Shown here piece by piece: positions 14,955 to 64,000 of a stretch of 64,000 bases of DNA (position 1 is the first letter of the stretch; each line of letters begins with the position of its first letter). This DNA comes from a bacterium. GTDB lineage: Bacteria; Armatimonadota; Zipacnadia; Zipacnadales; UBA11051. The notes below the pieces were generated by a model. That model saw only the letters and a list, made by a program, of their open reading frames with translations. It was not told the origin of the DNA and made no database searches. The stretch spans positions 1-64,000 of the forward strand of contig JAJFUB010000151.1 of NCBI GenBank assembly GCA_021372615.1. Reading direction: 5' to 3'. A program made the translations under genes and the position numbers.

Positions 14955-16946
14955 GTGAGTGCCGCGATCCCTTGTCACGGGGCACGTGACACCGCGCCGA
15001 CCCCCGCCCTCACCGCGCGGGGCGCCGCCTGCGCCTTCGCCGTCGCCCTGGGCCTGCTGGTGCTGGTCAACCTGTTCATCCGCCGCTACGACCTGGAGGG
15101 CGGGCAGTCGTATGGGGTGCAGGGCGTGCCCCCGGCGGTGCCGTGGTTCGTGCTGCTGGTGCTGATGCTGGCCTCGGCGGCGGCCCGTCGTCTCTCCCCG
15201 CGCCTGGCGCTCAGCCGCCCCCAACTCCTGCTCATCTTCGGCTTCCTCGCCCTGGCCATCCCCATCTCGTCCTTCATGGGCGTGCGCTCGTTGCTCCCGC
15301 ACCTGTCGCTGCTGCCGTACTACGCCGGACCGGACAACGAGTTCGCGCGCATCGCCGACCACATCCCCGACTGGCTCATGCCCAAGGACCTGCAGGTGCT
15401 CATCCCCGCCTATGAGGGCAGCGAGACCGGGGCGGTGCTGTGGGGGCCATGGCTCGGGCCGGTGCTGCTATGGGGCGGCTTCATGCTGCTGCTGGGGCTG
15501 ACGACGCTGTGCCTCGTGGTGCTGGTGCGCCACCACTGGAACGTCGGCGAGCACCTGAGCTACCCGATGCTGGAGCTGCCGCGCGAACTGGTGGGCCTGC
15601 GCCATCGCGGCCGACGCTCGGTGCTGACCGACCCGCTGCTGTGGGTCGGCTTCGGCACGGCCTTCCTCATCCAGACCGGCAACATCGTCAAGTACTTCGT
15701 CCCCTCGCTGCCGGCGGTGCCGTTGCGGACCGACCTGGCGCCCTTCCTGACCGAAGAGCCGCTGCGCTTCCTGCTGCCCCTGCGCTTCTACATTGACCCG
15801 GTCACGATCGGGGCCGGCTACCTTGTCCCCCAGGACTTGCTGCTCTCGATCTGGACCATCTACCTGCTGTACAAGCTGGGCGGCATGGGCGCCGGGATGC
15901 TGGGCCTGCGCGACGCCTCCTTCCCGTACTTCCAGGAGCAGGCCACCGGGGGCACCATCGCCTACGGGCTGCTGCTGGTCATCGCGGCCCGCGGGCAGAT
16001 CGCCCGGCTGGCGCGCCTGGCCACCCGCGGCGAGCGCAGCGGCGAGGCCTACCCGCTCACTCCGGGCGTCGCCTTCTACGGCTTGCTCGTGGGCCTCGCG
16101 CTCATCATCCTCTGGTGCTCCCTCAACCAGTTCGCGCTCAAGCTGGCCGTCCCATACATCATCGTCCTGATGCTCTACACGCTGGTCCAGACGCGCCTGC
16201 GCGCCGAGGCGGGCATCCCACTCGGATGGCCCTACCCCTACGGCACCCAGAAGTCCCTCTTCAACCAGCTCCTGGGCACGAAGGGCCTCATGGCTCTGGG
16301 CGGCGAACAGGGCCTGGTCATGCTCTCCTTCTACTCGTGGCTGTCCCGCTACAACTACCTGGGCGAGACGGCGGCCTTCGAGGCCGACAACCTGACTTTG
16401 TGGGAGGGGCTCGACCTCAGCCCCCGGCAGACCAACGGCTTCCTGCTGAGCGCGCTGGTAGCCGGGCTGGCGCTGGGCTTCATGATTCACCTCAGCGCCT
16501 ACTACCGCTACGGGGCCTCGCTGCTGCAGGGCGGGAGCCTCTACGGGGGGGCGAACACGATGGTGGCGCGCGGCGAGTACCTGGGCCTCAGCGCCCAGCT
16601 CCTCTCCCCGGCGCCGCCCGACGTGCTCCGGGTCAAGTTCATGCTGGGTGGCTTCCTGCTGACCCCGGCCCTGGCGCTGCTGCGGCGCAGCTTCCTGCGC
16701 TTCCCGTTCCACCCCCTCGGCTTCCTGCTGGCCACCAGCTACGGCCCGACGCCCTACTACTGGTCCAGCGCGATGATCGCCTGGGCTGCCAAGGCGGGCA
16801 TCCTGCGCCTGGGCGGCGCGCGGCGGTACTGGCGCGGCGTCCCGTTCTTCCTGGGCCTGGTGCTCGGCAGCTCGATGACCTACGACATCGCCTGGATGGT
16901 CGTCCGGGCGTTACTGCCCGAAGGCATGGTGACTGACTATGTGTAG
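14955..16946 (+). CDS. Large polytopic membrane protein (DUF6785/DUF6784-like)
   Basis: A 663-residue integral membrane protein. At least ten hydrophobic segments can be seen, for example near 25-42, 62-75, 93-110, 160-182, 220-240, 290-310, 330-350, 365-400 and 505-525. Conserved-looking motifs include GEHLSYPMLELPREL in a cytoplasmic loop and AEAGIPLGWPYPYGTQ, which resemble the DUF6785/DUF6784 proteins of Armatimonadota and Planctomycetota. These have an oligopeptide-transporter-like look but no proven substrate. The GTG start follows GAGGGAAG. Its end overlaps the reading frame of the next gene by 8 bases, so the two may be co-expressed. The 121 bases before it hold nothing I can name. 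Confidence 0.7.
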   Translation: MSAAIPCHGARDTAPTPALTARGAACAFAVALGLLVLVNLFIRRYDLEGGQSYGVQGVPPAVPWFVLLVLMLASAAARRLSPRLALSRPQLLLIFGFLALAIPISSFMGVRSLLPHLSLLPYYAGPDNEFARIADHIPDWLMPKDLQVLIPAYEGSETGAVLWGPWLGPVLLWGGFMLLLGLTTLCLVVLVRHHWNVGEHLSYPMLELPRELVGLRHRGRRSVLTDPLLWVGFGTAFLIQTGNIVKYFVPSLPAVPLRTDLAPFLTEEPLRFLLPLRFYIDPVTIGAGYLVPQDLLLSIWTIYLLYKLGGMGAGMLGLRDASFPYFQEQATGGTIAYGLLLVIAARGQIARLARLATRGERSGEAYPLTPGVAFYGLLVGLALIILWCSLNQFALKLAVPYIIVLMLYTLVQTRLRAEAGIPLGWPYPYGTQKSLFNQLLGTKGLMALGGEQGLVMLSFYSWLSRYNYLGETAAFEADNLTLWEGLDLSPRQTNGFLLSALVAGLALGFMIHLSAYYRYGASLLQGGSLYGGANTMVARGEYLGLSAQLLSPAPPDVLRVKFMLGGFLLTPALALLRRSFLRFPFHPLGFLLATSYGPTPYYWSSAMIAWAAKAGILRLGGARRYWRGVPFFLGLVLGSSMTYDIAWMVVRALLPEGMVTDYV

Positions 16947-58509: not shown

Positions 58510-58647
58510 TATCGTCCTCCCTACGGTGTCAGGAGCGCCGGCCCAGACGATCCGGGCCTCTCTCCCAGGCCTTCCTCGCCCTGCTCTCCCTTCCCTCTGT
58601 GGGGTGTGACCTTCAGTTGTCGGTGCCGGTGCTAGATGCCGCGCGGA

Positions 58648-58980
58648 CCTTCCCGCCCGCAGGACGGTCGGTGGTGCTCAGGATGGTGGCCTTCCCGTCC
58701 GCAGGACGGTCGGCGGTGCGCAGCACCGCCCCCCAGCCGGACGCTTCCGCGCCCGGGCCGCCGCCGCCCCCTTGTCTCTCTCTGCGGTCGTTCCGTTCCG
58801 TCCGCAGGACGGTCGGCGGGACGCCCGGCGAGCCCTTGCGCCCGCGCCGGGCCTGCGGCCAACCGTCCTGCGGACGGAAGGCACTCCTGACGGAGAGGAA
58901 AGGGGTGGCGTTCCTTCCCGGCGTTGAAACGCCGGGCTGAGGGGCGGTGCCGCGCACTGCCGAGCGTCCTGCGGACGCCA
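58648..58980. repeat. Repeat-rich non-coding stretch (family F)
   Basis: The 586-base gap between hisF and arsR holds no convincing gene. It carries at least five copies of a short element around CCGCAGGACGGTCGG: direct at 58648-58680, 58690-58722 and about 58791-58819, inverted at about 58858-58881 and 58959-58980. The open frames across it are GC-driven and not conserved in style. The arsR promoter lies at its right end. Confidence 0.75.
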
Positions 58981-59051
58981 CGACTCCCGCCCCGCCGCAC
59001 CTCCGCCCCCCAGGCCACGCGCCGACAACCAACTGCCCCTTCGTGCCCCCC

Positions 59052-59095: not shown

Positions 59096-59419
59096 ATGAG
59101 CACCGAAGCCTACAAAGCCAAAGCCGACATCATCAAGGCCCTCGCGCACCCCAGCCGCCTCGCCATGGTCGAGGCCCTCGCCGGCGGCGAAATGTGCGTC
59201 TGCCACCTGCAGGAGCTGGTCGGCTCCGACATGTCTACCGTCTCCAAGCACCTCAGCCTCCTCAAGCACGCTGGCATCGTCCGCGACCGCAAGCAGGGCC
59301 TGTGGGTGTACTACAGCCTGCGCACCCCGTGCGTGCTCAACTTCCTGGGCTGCATCGAGGCGATGGTCGAGGAGGACGCGGCAGCAGCCTCAGGGCGGGG
59401 TGCCCGCCATAGCGCGTAG
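59096..59419 (+). CDS. arsR: ArsR/SmtB-family metal(loid)-sensing repressor
   Basis: A 107-residue winged-helix repressor. The metal site of the arsenic-sensing type is Cys34-Val-Cys36 (GGEMCVCHL, compare ELCVCDL of the classic ArsR), at the start of the DNA-recognition part. SDMSTVSKHLSLLKHAGIV forms the recognition helix and following strand. Further cysteines, Cys79 and Cys86, may join the site. Binding of arsenite-type ions would release it from the operator at 59069-59086. The last eight codons (GRGARHSA) are supplied by the family D repeat, so the C-terminus may have been changed by its insertion. Heads the operon of permease, thioredoxins and related proteins. Confidence 0.9.
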   Translation: MSTEAYKAKADIIKALAHPSRLAMVEALAGGEMCVCHLQELVGSDMSTVSKHLSLLKHAGIVRDRKQGLWVYYSLRTPCVLNFLGCIEAMVEEDAAAASGRGARHSA

Positions 59420-59507: not shown

Positions 59508-60536
59508 ATGAACACTGCTCCCTGGTGGACCGGGCCCTTCAAGAGCCTCGGCAACCTCCTCGCCTACAACCTGCTCGGCCTCGACCCCAAGAGCCACTTC
59601 GGCAGCTCCGTCCAGTTCTTCATCTGGGACGTCATCAAGATCCTCTTCCTGCTGACGGTCATCGTCTTCGCCGTCGCCATCATTCGCAGCTTCTTCTCGC
59701 CCGAGCGCTCCCGCCGCATCCTCGGCGGCAAGCACGAGTGGGCCGGCAACATCCTGGCCTCCCTCCTGGGCGTGGTCACACCCTTCTGCTCGTGCTCGGC
59801 CTGCCCGCTGTTCATCGGCTTCGTCGAGAGCGGTATCCCCCTGGGCGTGGCGATGTCCTTCCTGATCTCCGCCCCCACGGTCAACGAGGTCGCCCTGATC
59901 CTGCTGCTGGGCCTGTTCGGCTGGCGCGTGGCGGGCCTGTACCTGCTCACGGGCGTGCTCATGGCGATCGTGGCCGGGATGGTCATCGGGCGACTCAGGC
60001 TCGAACGGTTCGTCGAGGAGTACGTCTGGCAGGTCCAGATGGCCGAGACCGAGGAGGAAGACCCCACCTGGGCTGACCGCCTCGCCTACGCCAAAGACTA
60101 CACGAAGACGCTGATGAAGAAGGTCGGACCATGGGTCCTGATCGGCGTGGGCGTGGCCGCCGGCATCCACGGCTACGTGCCCGTCGAGTTCGTCGCCCGG
60201 GCCGCGGGCCAGGGCAACCCGCTGGCTGTCCCCATCGCCGTCCTCATTGGCATCCCGCTGTACTCCAATGCCGCGGGCACCATCCCCATCGTCCAGGTGC
60301 TGGTGGAGAAGGGCGTGCCCATCGGCACCGCCCTGGCGCTGATGATGTCCATCGTCGCCATCTCGGTGCCCGAGATGCTGATCCTCCGGCAGGTCGTGAA
60401 GTGGCCGCTGCTCGGGGTCTTTGCCGGGGTGGTGGTCGTGGCGATCATCATCATCGGGACCATGTTCAACACTGTCATCTTCCCCGGTGGCACGCCGCCG
60501 GAGATCATGCAGCAACTGCAGAGTCTGGGAGGCTGA
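59508..60536 (+). CDS. ArsP/DUF318-type permease
   Basis: A 342-residue polytopic membrane protein of the ArsP/SO_0444-type permease family (COG0701), with about eight to ten membrane spans. The family motif TPFCSCSACPLFIGF holds Cys94, Cys96 and Cys99. The second half repeats the fold with IGIPLYSNAAGTIPIV. Characterised members export trivalent methyl- or phenyl-arsenicals (ArsP) or other soft metals. A cytoplasmic acidic loop (about 175-195) lies between the halves. No ribosome site is clear before the ATG, so translation may depend on arsR. Function as organo-arsenical exporter is inferred. Confidence 0.85.
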   Translation: MNTAPWWTGPFKSLGNLLAYNLLGLDPKSHFGSSVQFFIWDVIKILFLLTVIVFAVAIIRSFFSPERSRRILGGKHEWAGNILASLLGVVTPFCSCSACPLFIGFVESGIPLGVAMSFLISAPTVNEVALILLLGLFGWRVAGLYLLTGVLMAIVAGMVIGRLRLERFVEEYVWQVQMAETEEEDPTWADRLAYAKDYTKTLMKKVGPWVLIGVGVAAGIHGYVPVEFVARAAGQGNPLAVPIAVLIGIPLYSNAAGTIPIVQVLVEKGVPIGTALALMMSIVAISVPEMLILRQVVKWPLLGVFAGVVVVAIIIIGTMFNTVIFPGGTPPEIMQQLQSLGG

Positions 60537-60537
60537 C

Positions 60538-60780
60538 ATGAAGATCGTCATCTATGGCACCGGCTGCAAGAAGTGCAAGCAGCTCTTCGCCAACGCGGAG
60601 GAGGCCGTGCGCCTGGCGGGCGTTGAGGCCGAGGTCACCAAGGTCGAGCAGGTGGCCGACATCGTCCAGGCCGGGATCATGTTCACCCCGGGCCTGACGA
60701 TTGACGGCCAGGTCAAGTCCACGGGCAGAGTGCCCGATGCGGCCAAGATCGCGGCCTGGATACAGGAAGCCAGGTCGTAG
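60538..60780 (+). CDS. Mini-thioredoxin (small redox-active disulfide protein)
   Basis: An 80-residue thioredoxin-fold protein, about the size of the archaeal/bacterial small redox-active disulfide proteins, with Cys10 and Cys13 in GTGCKKCKQ. It lacks a signal peptide and should work in the cytoplasm, perhaps reducing a substrate before export or serving as a donor. The conserved cis-Pro is in MFTPGLTIDG. It begins two bases after the permease stop, preceded by GGGAGGCTGAC, so it is translationally linked. Confidence 0.85.
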   Translation: MKIVIYGTGCKKCKQLFANAEEAVRLAGVEAEVTKVEQVADIVQAGIMFTPGLTIDGQVKSTGRVPDAAKIAAWIQEARS

Positions 60781-60829
60781 CCCCGACCGCCCCGCCGGGG
60801 CGGCAGCCCATGTGAAGGAGGGGACACTT

Positions 60830-61201
60830 ATGTCCTCATGTTGCGCCGGGAGCAAGACGCTGGTGTTCGCGTGTAGTGGCGGCTCAAACGTCGGGCAGCT
60901 CAGCAATGAGGCCGCCAAGCAACTCGACATGGAGGGTGTCGGCAGCTTCTTCTGCGCCGCCGGCATCGGCGGCGGCCTGGCAGGCTTCATCACCAAGGCG
61001 CGCGAGGCCGACGCGACCATCGTCATTGACGGCTGTGACCTCGGCTGCGTCAAGGCCGCCTTTGAGCGCGAGGACGTGCCCATCTCCAAGTACGTGGTCA
61101 TCACCGACCTCGGCATCGAGAAGGGGCACCACTTCAATCTGACCGACGAGCAGGTCGCGACCGTCTGCGCAGCGGCGAAGAAGAGCTGCTGCTGCGGGTA
61201 A
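60830..61201 (+). CDS. Cysteine-rich DGC-motif protein (putative zinc-binding)
   Basis: A 123-residue protein of the DGC family (DUF1847-like / putative zinc-binding protein). The signature IDGCDLGC gives Cys69 and Cys73, and the ends carry more cysteines: SSCC near the start (4-5) and Cys113 and CCC (120-122) at the end. FACSGGSNVG and FFCAAGIGGG give Cys15 and Cys42. It probably binds a metal or a sulfur-linked ligand; such proteins often sit with ArsP-type permeases. Cytoplasmic, no signal. AAGGAGGGGACACTT is a very strong ribosome site, and the gene sits 49 bases after the mini-thioredoxin. Confidence 0.8.
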   Translation: MSSCCAGSKTLVFACSGGSNVGQLSNEAAKQLDMEGVGSFFCAAGIGGGLAGFITKAREADATIVIDGCDLGCVKAAFEREDVPISKYVVITDLGIEKGHHFNLTDEQVATVCAAAKKSCCCG

Positions 61202-61291
61202 GGCTGCAGCCGGGACGGCCTAGGGTGAGGGTCAGGCGGCCCTCGCCCCGCTCGTCCGGGTGCCGCGCCATCGGATGAAAGGTTGGTTCAT

Positions 61292-61762
61292 GTGAAACGG
61301 ACACAGGTGGCAGCGCTCATTCTCGTCCTGCTCGTCGTCGGGGCGGTCGTGGCCATGAAGGCCAACCAGATGCAGGACAGCAACACGGTGCCCGAAGGGG
61401 CAACCTGTCCCACGGTCCCGAGCAGGAGCGACACCGGCTCACCACCGGCCCCGGCCCCCACGGCCCAGGAGTCGGCTGCATCGCTGCCGCGGCTGGTGGA
61501 CCTCGGCTCCACCACCTGCATCCCCTGCAAGCAGATGGCGCCGATCCTCGAGGAGCTCAAGGTGGAGTTGCAGGGCAAGGTCGAGGTCGAGTTCATAGAC
61601 ATCGCCCAGAACCCGCAGGCGGCCGACAAGTACGCCATCAACGTGATCCCCACCCAGATCTTCCTCGACCAGACCGGCCAGGAAGCGTTCCGTCACGAGG
61701 GCTTCTACCCCAAGGCGGACATCCTGGCCCAGCTGGAGAAGATGGGCGTCAAGACCAACTAG
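61292..61762 (+). CDS. Membrane-anchored thioredoxin
   Basis: A 156-residue protein with an N-terminal anchor helix (about 7-22), a Pro/Ser/Thr-rich linker (about 30-62), then a thioredoxin domain (about 65-156). The site is Cys76-Ile-Pro-Cys79 (STTCIPCKQM), with the cis-Pro in INVIPTQIF. It should work outside the cytoplasm, reduced by the CcdA protein encoded downstream. It closely matches the thioredoxin domain of the next gene (STTCLPCKQM, VIPTQVF, FRHEGFY), a sign of duplication. The GTG at 61292 follows AAAGG; a TTG three codons upstream is less likely. Confidence 0.9.
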   Translation: MKRTQVAALILVLLVVGAVVAMKANQMQDSNTVPEGATCPTVPSRSDTGSPPAPAPTAQESAASLPRLVDLGSTTCIPCKQMAPILEELKVELQGKVEVEFIDIAQNPQAADKYAINVIPTQIFLDQTGQEAFRHEGFYPKADILAQLEKMGVKTN

Positions 61763-61782: not shown

Positions 61783-62991
61783 ATGCTGCCAAGGCGCTTT
61801 GCTCTGTGTGCCGCTGCGGCCCTCTGCGCCGCCGGCGTGGTCGTGGCCCAGGGCGCGGTCAAGCTGCCGAAGCTGGTGGACCTGGGCTCCACCACCTGCC
61901 TCCCCTGCAAGCAGATGGAACCCATCCTCAAGGAGTTGAAGACCGAGCTGGCGGGCGTCGTGGACGTGGTGTTCATCAACGTCTACGCACAGCCGGAGAT
62001 GGCCCGGGACTTCCGCATCGAGGTCATCCCGACCCAGGTCTTCCTCGGCGCAGATGGCAAGGAGCTGTTCCGCCACGAGGGCTTCTATGCCAAGAGCGCG
62101 ATCCTCGCGAAGTGGCGCGAGTTGGGCGTGGCGGTGCCGCTCCCGGCGCTGCCCTCCGTCAGCCGCTGGAACGTGCCGCCGGACACCCGCCCCCGGGACA
62201 CCATCTGCTACCTGTGCGATGGCGCCGTGGCCCCAAAGACCGCAGTCCTGGTGAAGACCGACAAAGGCGAGGTGCGCCTGTGCTCTCCGCACTGCTTCCT
62301 CGTGATGCTCTCCTCCTACACCGGCGACTGCGCGCCGCTGGAGGACAAGGCCTGCGTGACGGACTACAAGAGCGGCCGTCCGGCGCCCCTGCGGGACGCC
62401 AGCTATCTCGTTGTACTCAACGAGGAGACGGGGAGGCCCTTCGTGATGGCCTTCGCCAAGCGCGAGGCGGCGCTGTCCGCCCGGCGGAGTGTCGGTGGCA
62501 GCATCCTGACCTATGAGCTGCTGAAGGCCTGCGAGTTGGCGACCCGCTGCGGCTTCTGCGATCGCGCCGTCTACCCGCAGGATGCCGCGCTGGTGACGGC
62601 CGGGGGCCTGCACACCTACGGCTGCTGTTCGCACTGCGCCATGGGTGTGGCGGCTCGCACAGGCAAGGACATCGAGGTGCATCAGCCCGACGCCCTGACC
62701 GGGCAGATGATCGTCGTCAAGACCCTCGACGGCACGATTGCCTCCCTGGACCCGCCGACGGCCGTGGCCTGGTTTGGCCAGCGGACGAAGCCGGACGGCA
62801 AGCATGCTTCCGCCGGCTGTTTCCATCAGGGCTTCTTCGTATCCGTCGAGAACCTGCAGCAGTGGCTGGCCGCCCATCCGCTGGAGACGGGCGAGCTGAT
62901 CACCATCGAGAAGGCCCTGGCCGACAAGATGGCGCTCTCGGCCGAGCAGATCAAGAAGGCCTGCAAGATCGGCGAGTGCGCCCCCAAGTAG
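61783..62991 (+). CDS. Secreted thioredoxin-NosL-MerB fusion protein
   Basis: A 402-residue exported protein with three parts. Signal peptide about 1-22. Thioredoxin domain (about 27-115) with Cys39 and Cys42. NosL-like domain (about 138-250): Cys142 and Cys145 (ICYLCDGAV), Cys167/Cys171 (LCSPHC), ACVTDYKSG and RSVGGSILTY, the order seen in copper-chaperone NosL. MerB-like domain (about 253-385): RCGFCDRAVYP, then HTYGCCSHCAMG (Cys281, 282, 285), and AGCFHQGFFVSVENLQQWL (Cys346). In alkylmercury lyase, Cys96, Asp99 and Cys159 do the work. Here Cys282 and Cys346 line up with the cysteines while the Asp place is Cys285. The NosL and MerB folds are related, so the tail may be a tandem duplicate. 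Probable organometal or metal-thiol handling outside the cytoplasm, with reduction through the thioredoxin part. Confidence 0.7.
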   Translation: MLPRRFALCAAAALCAAGVVVAQGAVKLPKLVDLGSTTCLPCKQMEPILKELKTELAGVVDVVFINVYAQPEMARDFRIEVIPTQVFLGADGKELFRHEGFYAKSAILAKWRELGVAVPLPALPSVSRWNVPPDTRPRDTICYLCDGAVAPKTAVLVKTDKGEVRLCSPHCFLVMLSSYTGDCAPLEDKACVTDYKSGRPAPLRDASYLVVLNEETGRPFVMAFAKREAALSARRSVGGSILTYELLKACELATRCGFCDRAVYPQDAALVTAGGLHTYGCCSHCAMGVAARTGKDIEVHQPDALTGQMIVVKTLDGTIASLDPPTAVAWFGQRTKPDGKHASAGCFHQGFFVSVENLQQWLAAHPLETGELITIEKALADKMALSAEQIKKACKIGECAPK

Positions 62992-63009: not shown

Positions 63010-63693
63010 TTGGACCTCATGCAGCCGCTGCAACAGGCCCTCGACCAATCGTCGCTGCTGGTGGTCCCGCTGGTCTTCTTGGGCGGGGCGGCCACGGGGC
63101 TGAACCCGTGCGTCTACCCCACCATCCCGGTGCTCGTCGGCTACATCTCGGGCCAGAAGGAGCAGCCCCGCTGGCGCGGACTCGCCCTGGCCCTGACCTT
63201 TGTGTTCGGGCTGGCTATCACTTACGTGATCATCGGGGCGACCGCGTCCTTCGTCGGCAGCGTCCTGGGCCTGTCCAAGGCCGGCTGGATGTATGTTGTC
63301 GCCGCCGTCTGCCTGCTCGTCGGGCTGAACATGACGGGGCTGCTGCCGCTGAGCTTCAGCACCTGGGCCCCCGCGCAGTCGAAGTGGTCGCGGCTCAGCG
63401 GCTTCGCCGGCGCCCTGGTCCTGGGCATGCTCTTCGGCCTCGTCGCCAGCCCGTGTGCCATGCCGATCCTCACGCTGATCCTGGCGCTCATCGCCCAGAA
63501 GGGGCAGGTGGCCTACGGCTCGCTGTTGATGTTCACGTACGCCGTGGGCCATGGCCTGCCGCTGGTGATCATCGGCACCGTAGCGGGCGCGCTCACCAGC
63601 CTCGAACGCTGCACCAGGTACTCCGTCCTGATACAGCGGGTCGGCGGCTGGCTCCTGGTCGCTGTGGGCGTGTACTTCATCTGGACAGCCTGA
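63010..63693 (+). CDS. CcdA-type thiol-disulfide transmembrane protein
   Basis: A 227-residue integral membrane protein of six spans, of the CcdA/DsbD-beta family, which carries electrons from cytoplasmic thioredoxin to proteins outside the cell membrane. Cys34 (GLNPCVYPTIPV) and Cys149 (ASPCAMPIL) are the working pair, each next to a Pro. The TTG start follows AGGAGCACGACC; an ATG three codons later is possible. It lies among three thioredoxin-type genes that could be its clients, so it is probably the electron source for the secreted fusion protein. Confidence 0.9.
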   Translation: MDLMQPLQQALDQSSLLVVPLVFLGGAATGLNPCVYPTIPVLVGYISGQKEQPRWRGLALALTFVFGLAITYVIIGATASFVGSVLGLSKAGWMYVVAAVCLLVGLNMTGLLPLSFSTWAPAQSKWSRLSGFAGALVLGMLFGLVASPCAMPILTLILALIAQKGQVAYGSLLMFTYAVGHGLPLVIIGTVAGALTSLERCTRYSVLIQRVGGWLLVAVGVYFIWTA

Positions 63694-63716
63694 CCATACC
63701 GCAGAGGAACAGAGAC

Positions 63717-64000
63717 ATGCGCAGGAACCTCAGACTTGCCGTCACCGCCGCCCTGTGTGCGACCGTCCTGACAGCGGCCCACGCCGAGGGGCTCAGCGTC
63801 GGTGCCAGGGCCCCCGGCTTTACCCTCAAGACCCTCGCCGGGAAGCCCTACAAGCTGTCGGACTACAAGGGCAAGAGCGTGGTCATACTCGACTTTGGCC
63901 GCTTCACCTGCCTGCCTTGCCGCGACATGCTCAAGGACCTGCAGAAGCTGCAGGCCAAGTACAAGGGCCACGGTGTGCGGATCTTCCAGGTGAACCTCGA
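63717..64000 (+). CDS. TlpA/ResA-type exported thioredoxin, cut by the window end
   Basis: The first 94 or so residues of a secreted thioredoxin-like protein: signal peptide (about 1-23), then GLSVGARAPGFTLKTLAGK, the typical start of AhpC/TSA- and TlpA-type proteins. Cys65 and Cys68 lie in DFGRFTCLPCRDM. The gene runs off the right edge, so its end and any further operon members are not seen. It probably receives electrons from CcdA. GAGGAACAGAGAC precedes the ATG. Confidence 0.85.
   Translation, partial: MRRNLRLAVTAALCATVLTAAHAEGLSVGARAPGFTLKTLAGKPYKLSDYKGKSVVILDFGRFTCLPCRDMLKDLQKLQAKYKGHGVRIFQVNL

Follow-up and report, generated by a model that had tools for sequence, protein, structure and literature searches.

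Within the 64,000-nucleotide stretch of bacterial DNA analysed here (the window; its genome comprises 6.41 Mb in 171 contigs), a tight run of genes on one strand encodes an ArsR regulator, an ArsP_1 permease, an ArsE-type thioredoxin, a DGC-domain protein, an exported thioredoxin, a fusion protein, CcdA and a ResA-like redoxin:

59096..59419, + strand: ArsR/SmtB-type metalloregulator, first of the cluster (NF033788, 96.5 bits, cut-off 55; PF01022)
59508..60536, + strand: ArsP_1-type permease, of the methylarsenite efflux permease ArsP family (PF03773, 1.6e-70)
60538..60780, + strand: small MTH895/ArsE-family thioredoxin-like protein (TIGR00412, 88.7 bits, cut-off 62)
60824..61201, + strand: DGC-domain protein, putatively zinc-binding, Cys-rich (PF08859, 3.1e-32)
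61283..61762, + strand: exported thioredoxin with a CIPC motif (PF00085, 1.8e-13)
61783..62991, + strand: fusion gene, 402 aa, with signal peptide, thioredoxin, NosL-like and MerB-like domains and a Cys tail
63010..63693, + strand: CcdA/DsbD transmembrane protein, by family an electron carrier across the membrane (PF02683, 2.7e-31)
63711..64000, + strand: ResA/AhpC-TSA-like exported redoxin, running past the window (PF00578, 7e-13; contig end at 64625)

The SaoE and SO_0444 equivalogs also match the permease, both below cut-off, and the CIPC thioredoxin is 57% identical to the thioredoxin domain of the fusion (tblastn within the genome). In the GC-rich intergenic stretch before arsR (58600-59000), short words repeat (e.g. 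ones encoding RPSCGR/RPADGK, in several frames), possibly forming a small repeat array. The open reading frame of the fusion starts 20 bp past the thioredoxin gene and ends 18 bp short of the CcdA gene, with GGAGG directly 5' of its ATG as a good ribosome-binding site. Its parts are the following:

61783..61851, + strand: predicted signal peptide, residues 1-23 (from sequence; pLDDT below 50, a low model confidence)
61852..62133, + strand: thioredoxin domain, residues 24-117, with C39-L-P-C42 (PF00085, 5e-11; conservation)
62158..62538, + strand: NosL-like domain, residues 126-252, C142-x2-C145 ... C167-x3-C171, without the CXM copper Met
62539..62931, + strand: MerB-like domain, residues 253-383, with C256-x2-C259, C281-C282-x2-C285, D303 and C346
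62626..62637, + strand: codons from Cys282 (MerB C96 position) to Cys285 (MerB D99 position), by HMM alignment; both invariant in 69/69
62818..62820, + strand: codon of Cys346 (MerB C159 position), by HMM alignment; invariant in 69/69, inside a retrieval pattern
62962..62979, + strand: C-terminal tail C394-K-I-G-E-C399, not in MerB, both Cys invariant

The preliminary description had proposed a secreted protein with thioredoxin, NosL-like and MerB-like domains in this order, and profiles, hhalign and Foldseek bear the order out, with export by prediction. PF00085 matches residues 29-109 of the window protein (42.9 bits, cut-off 23.5), and the CxPC site is present together with its cis-Pro (C39-x-P41-C42 and P83 invariant; P83-T84-Q85 conserved). 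A hydrophobic N-terminal stretch occurs in 55 of 69 orthologues, and the protein is predicted from its signal peptide to be exported. AF2 modelling of the whole fusion with 66 orthologues as input gave a mean pLDDT of 91.8 and a pTM of 0.83, and the best PDB match of this model was MerB2 (5C17, E 9.7e-9), ranking above every thioredoxin. The fusion reading frame and all three domain calls are confirmed as real.

The C-terminal domain is matched by MerB PF03243 over residues 271-379 (59.5 bits, cut-off 27), and the MerB and thioredoxin profiles both match 66 of 66 aligned orthologues. By hhalign this domain aligns with MerB at 99.3% (E 1.8e-20) and fails against the NosL family (1-2%); together with the Foldseek match to MerB2 5C17, these results uphold the MerB relation put forward earlier. 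The claim that Cys282 and Cys346 occupy two MerB catalytic positions, with Cys285 in place of the Asp, likewise held in the HMM alignment with solved MerB2 and E. coli MerB: C282 corresponds to Cys96 and C346 to Cys159, both equivalents being kept, and C285 falls at position 99, which is Asp in MerB and Ser in MerB2 and Cys in all 69 copies. D303 lies at the MerB Cys117 position and is Asp in 69/69. In the MerB enzymes two cysteines hold the metal, with Asp99 helping in both protonation and thiol exchange (PMC4525700). Cysteines absent from MerB comprise the C256-x2-C259 pair, C281 and the tail C394-x4-C399. Outside the retrieval patterns, C256, C259, C281, C282, C285, C394 and C399 are invariant in 69/69; C39, C42, C142 and C346 are invariant as well, although for C346, C39 and C42 this is partly by construction, because the loci were fetched with patterns containing them (CFHQGFF or C[IL]PCK...). 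The NCBIfam MerB equivalog scores 28.7 bits, below its cut-off of 200. The fusion is a MerB-domain relative that lacks Asp99, the N-terminal HTH domain and MerA, and not a canonical organomercurial lyase; by sequence and structure it belongs to the MerB domain family but fails MerB-enzyme features (Asp99, Cys117, equivalog score, MerA).

For the middle domain, neither Pfam nor NCBIfam profiles gave a NosL match on the window protein alone, so orthologues and fold comparison were needed. The NosL profile matches 38 of 66 aligned orthologues at E<=1; among ten inspected orthologues it falls on the middle domain in nine, and two of the ten exceed the Pfam NosL cut-off of 24 (L119 with 27.7 bits, L080 with 24.2 bits). 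Modelled alone with AF2, the middle domain reached a pLDDT of 95.4, and the five best Foldseek matches of this model in the PDB are all NosL (E 4e-4 to 3.5e-3, probability 1.00, TM 0.56-0.61); the next ones are only TRASH-like fragments of ribosomal L24 type, at E >0.3. In hhalign the domain aligns with NosL at 65.8% and fails against the MerB family (1-2%). The NosL relation suspected earlier is thus corroborated by orthologue profiles, the AF2 model and the top five Foldseek matches. The alignment of the middle with the C-terminal domain is weak (14.8%), and a recent internal duplication is therefore not claimed. The cysteines of the NosL-like domain are well kept (C142 in 69/69, C145 in 68/69, C167 in 66/69 and C171 in 60/69, with His in 8); the Met position of CXXCXM is Gly in 57 of 69 copies, so that the copper Met is missing, and TGRP stands at the site of the second conserved Met of NosL. 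By sequence and structure the middle domain belongs to the NosL fold, but it fails the NosL-defining copper motif.

A scan of genome contigs returned 299 stretches encoding a relative, and 67 full-length fusions were found among the best 80 of these 299; with the window and G104, at least 69 copies are known, answering the earlier question of whether the same fusion occurs in other genomes. The carriers span about eight phyla and are all MAGs, i.e. uncultured organisms: Planctomycetota (Phycisphaerae, Sedimentisphaerales), Kiritimatiellota, Lentisphaerota/Victivallales, Verrucomicrobiota, Armatimonadota, Riflebacteria, Omnitrophota and Sumerlaeota. Identity to the window protein is 48-69% among the aligned copies, and an architecture preserved in 69 copies from about eight phyla is more than chance. 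Within the window's phylum, a MerB domain exceeds the cut-off in only 4 of 251 genomes, in all four as the fusion, and the nearest fusion-bearing relatives of the window genome, among publicly named ones, are Armatimonadota MAGs. The copies cluster by phylum on a tree, with several off-phylum placements that could reflect transfer, mis-binning or paralogy. On a contig binned as Desulfovibrio sp. UBA6121 (L056), the genes are ordered similarly and the encoded protein shares about 70% identity with that of the window, with which it forms a group on the tree (100/100); the contig is probably mis-binned. No relative of the fusion was found among IMG/VR viral contigs.

The genes surrounding the fusion were counted in 69 loci of about 8 kb, many of them shorter, so that the counts depend on incomplete MAG contigs; ranges reflect two gene-finding methods, one of them a small codon-usage gene caller. 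Neighbours include ArsE-type thioredoxins (57 loci), CcdA (49-51), ArsP-type permeases (about 50), ArsR (46-49), DGC proteins (about 38), FMN reductases (30), ACR3 (26), ArsC (about 20), ArsF-like proteins (19), ArsM (13-17) and ArsG-like proteins (12), and representative neighbours pass the NCBIfam cut-offs for ACR3, ArsM, ArsF, ArsG and ArsA. Among the 38 carriers with ACR3 over cut-off, 20 have it within 10 kb of the fusion, against about 0.2 expected by a rough estimate of random placement in a 5-Mb genome. The suggestion that the fusion stays with arsR, arsP and ccdA genes therefore holds across genomes, as these counts attest, and its position mostly inside arsenic-resistance clusters makes it a candidate for handling organic arsenic compounds. 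No nos genes were recognised among its conserved neighbours. In L042 and L043, the same permease/thioredoxin/CcdA cassette carries a SurA-like-thioredoxin fusion and no MerB fusion, which makes the latter look like an optional part of a broader cassette. In some carriers ArsR and low-molecular-weight-type ArsC seemingly form one fused ORF (e.g. L087, 14953-15741, - strand).

The organometal substrate envisaged earlier is supported in part: the surrounding genes (ArsP, ArsE/F/G, ArsM) suggest arsenicals, organoarsenicals among them, rather than mercury, MerA being nearly absent. MerA exceeds the cut-off in one of 47 carriers and is not in the window genome; a mer operon as the main reading was rejected because the other 46 have no MerA over cut-off. 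An adjacent MerA-like match in G299 turned out to be a dihydrolipoyl dehydrogenase, and no MerR, MerT or MerP was recognised among the conserved neighbours. HgcA, the protein of Hg methylation, exceeds its cut-off in 7 of 47 carriers and lies near the fusion in two of these (G316, 1.5 kb, contig C19; G299, 7-14 kb); the other 40, the window genome among them, have none over cut-off. In the G299 locus (L161; G299:C1:442500-462000), HgcA and an HgcB-like 4Fe-4S ferredoxin (15729-16929) close a 16-kb cluster opened by the fusion, with ArsR, DGC, dihydrolipoyl dehydrogenase, CcdA, ArsA, ArsC and ACR3 also present. The HgcA linkage was weighed in favour of mercury, but hgcAB is independently known beside ars genes (PMC7438021).

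We tentatively read the fusion as an exported protein that handles arsenicals within a thiol-based arsenic/organoarsenic cluster, giving this a little less than an even chance. A MerB-type pocket in which Cys-Asp-Cys has become Cys-Cys-Cys (C282, C285, C346) would create a three-thiol site, the coordination preferred by As(III), and could suit trivalent arsenic (As(III) or methylarsenite), while the NosL-like domain may offer thiols for a second metal(loid) site. Kept reduced via the neighbouring CcdA and thioredoxin proteins, the N-terminal thioredoxin domain might keep the pocket cysteines reduced and/or strip bound arsenic, which could be passed to ArsP/ACR3-type exporters or be retained outside after them. 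Computational support comes from the domains, the positional equivalence of the pocket residues, cysteine conservation and the arsenic gene context. We infer export, the electron path, the substrate, and capture or reduction over bond cleavage: the fewest assumptions are needed if trivalent (organo)arsenicals are captured or reduced, and cleavage by thiol protonation, although possible, would be chemically demanding. Against our reading, the window genome lacks ACR3, and no ArsM lies next to the gene; the arsenic link of the window consists of ArsR, ArsP_1 and ArsE-type genes, and among the members of these families are transporters of other metals (SO_0444, Cu/Zn). Moreover, a three-Cys pocket would bind Hg, Cu, Cd or Sb as well, and the presence of two zinc-type CxxC pairs means that much of the cysteine conservation could be structural.

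The same pocket, with both metal-binding cysteines kept, and the same neighbours that make or handle organoarsenicals (ArsM, ArsP, ArsE/F/G) would also fit a carbon-metalloid lyase for methylarsenicals, an oxygen-independent C-As lyase, which we regard as unlikely. MAs(III) would be held by two thiolates, Cys285 in place of Asp99 would protonate the methyl group, methane would leave, and As(III) would remain as a tri-thiolate until stripped by the thioredoxin domain. This scheme is weakened by the resistance of C-As bonds to protonolysis, which is much greater than that of C-Hg bonds, by the loss of the Asp99 that aids protonation and thiol exchange in MerB, and by ArsM lying next door in just 13-17 of 69 loci. 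It gains interest from the identified C-As lyase having come from an aerobic bacterium, with whether and how demethylation proceeds in anoxic paddy soil not known (PMC6776024). A fuller version, in which MerB was retooled from Hg to As through Asp99 to Cys as an exported, oxygen-independent C-As lyase recharged by its own thioredoxin, and which would also be a TRASH/NosL-MerB paralogue, seems rather improbable; its hosts would probably be uncultured bacteria, largely anaerobic.

We consider it a minor prospect that the fusion, with no arsenical chemistry, acts outside the cell membrane as a general thiol oxidoreductase or as a factor in metal assembly, its NosL and MerB domains acting as zinc/copper modules that mature or protect a membrane transporter. 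The CxxC+CxxxC and CxxC+CCxxC patterns resemble zinc treble-clef ancestors (PMC4999995), CcdA, ResA-like and thioredoxin neighbours would fit, and NosL itself is a Cu(I) chaperone (PMC6530538); however, the NosL copper Met is gone, and the strong linkage to ACR3, ArsC, ArsM, ArsF and ArsG would be left unexplained. That the fusion is exported to cleave organomercurials (methylmercury) or to carry Hg, and lies by chance in an ars-like cluster, is very unlikely given the rarity of MerA, the lack of recognised MerR, MerT and MerP and the 40 carriers without HgcA over cut-off, even though the nearest solved relative is MerB2 with its Ser at position 99 and HgcA lies near the fusion in G316 and G299.

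Two testable questions arise from the fusion family. One concerns the oxygen-independent handling of methylated and other organic arsenicals. The other is the origin of MerB: a survey found no suitable MerB paralogues for rooting in databases (PMC8261052), and a proposal by Kaur & Subramanian, as cited in PMC4999995, derives MerB from duplicated zinc-type TRASH domains. The fusions present a zinc-finger-like CxxC...CxxC layout in a clear MerB domain, with a NosL domain in the same chain. Besides, two short, apparently exported MerB-like proteins from the window's phylum (L051, L053; Pfam 23-25 bits, below cut-off) carry the motif CPxC...RCVxCAL in a zinc-type layout, and are possible single-domain intermediates between TRASH/NosL and MerB.

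Among known systems, the ArsEFG/ArsP organoarsenical resistance clusters, whose ArsE/F/G and ArsP proteins act on organoarsenicals (PMC9144182), share ArsE-, ArsF-, ArsG- and ArsP-family neighbours with many fusion carriers, whereas no MerB/NosL-containing member of them is described in the open-licence literature searched. SaoL (NF040728), the MerB-like selenoprotein of the Sec-assisted organometallic (SAO) system, also has a MerB-like domain, and the SAO efflux model SaoE also matches the neighbouring permease below cut-off; unlike SaoL, however, the fusion has three domains without Sec, and scores 12.2-14.8 bits against 140 on a short model of 159 positions. NosL (PF05573), the chaperone of nitrous oxide reductase, shares the fold of the middle domain, some orthologues passing its Pfam cut-off, but the latter lacks the CXM copper Met and is joined to other domains. 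That no protein with this domain order had been described, as the preliminary description stated, requires narrowing: a simpler Trx-like-MerB fusion exists in Actinomycetota, which leaves just the Trx-NosL-MerB order and the export as apparent novelties. Nothing relevant to this architecture or to a MerB-arsenic link was found in open-licence literature, which is weak evidence of absence. The actinobacterial proteins (L148, L149, L151, L152 and L154; Streptomyces, Nocardia and Rhodococcus plasmids; 'alkylmercury lyase family protein', 322-335 aa) place a thioredoxin-like domain of the Thioredoxin_3/DF family N-terminal to MerB and represent an independent fusion, L152 adjoining ArsR and ACR3; they differ in their thioredoxin type, a CAxDA motif with the Asp kept, no NosL domain and no evident signal peptide. 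Canonical MerB and its 99Ser variant MerB2 (5C17) share with the fusion the catalytic-domain fold and family and the C96 and C159 equivalents, position 99 being altered in MerB2 too. Unlike them, the fusion is predicted to be exported, has Asp at the C117 position, an extra CxxC before the pocket and a CxxxxC tail, lacks the N-terminal HTH_15, and carries attached thioredoxin and NosL domains in an arsenic rather than a mer context.
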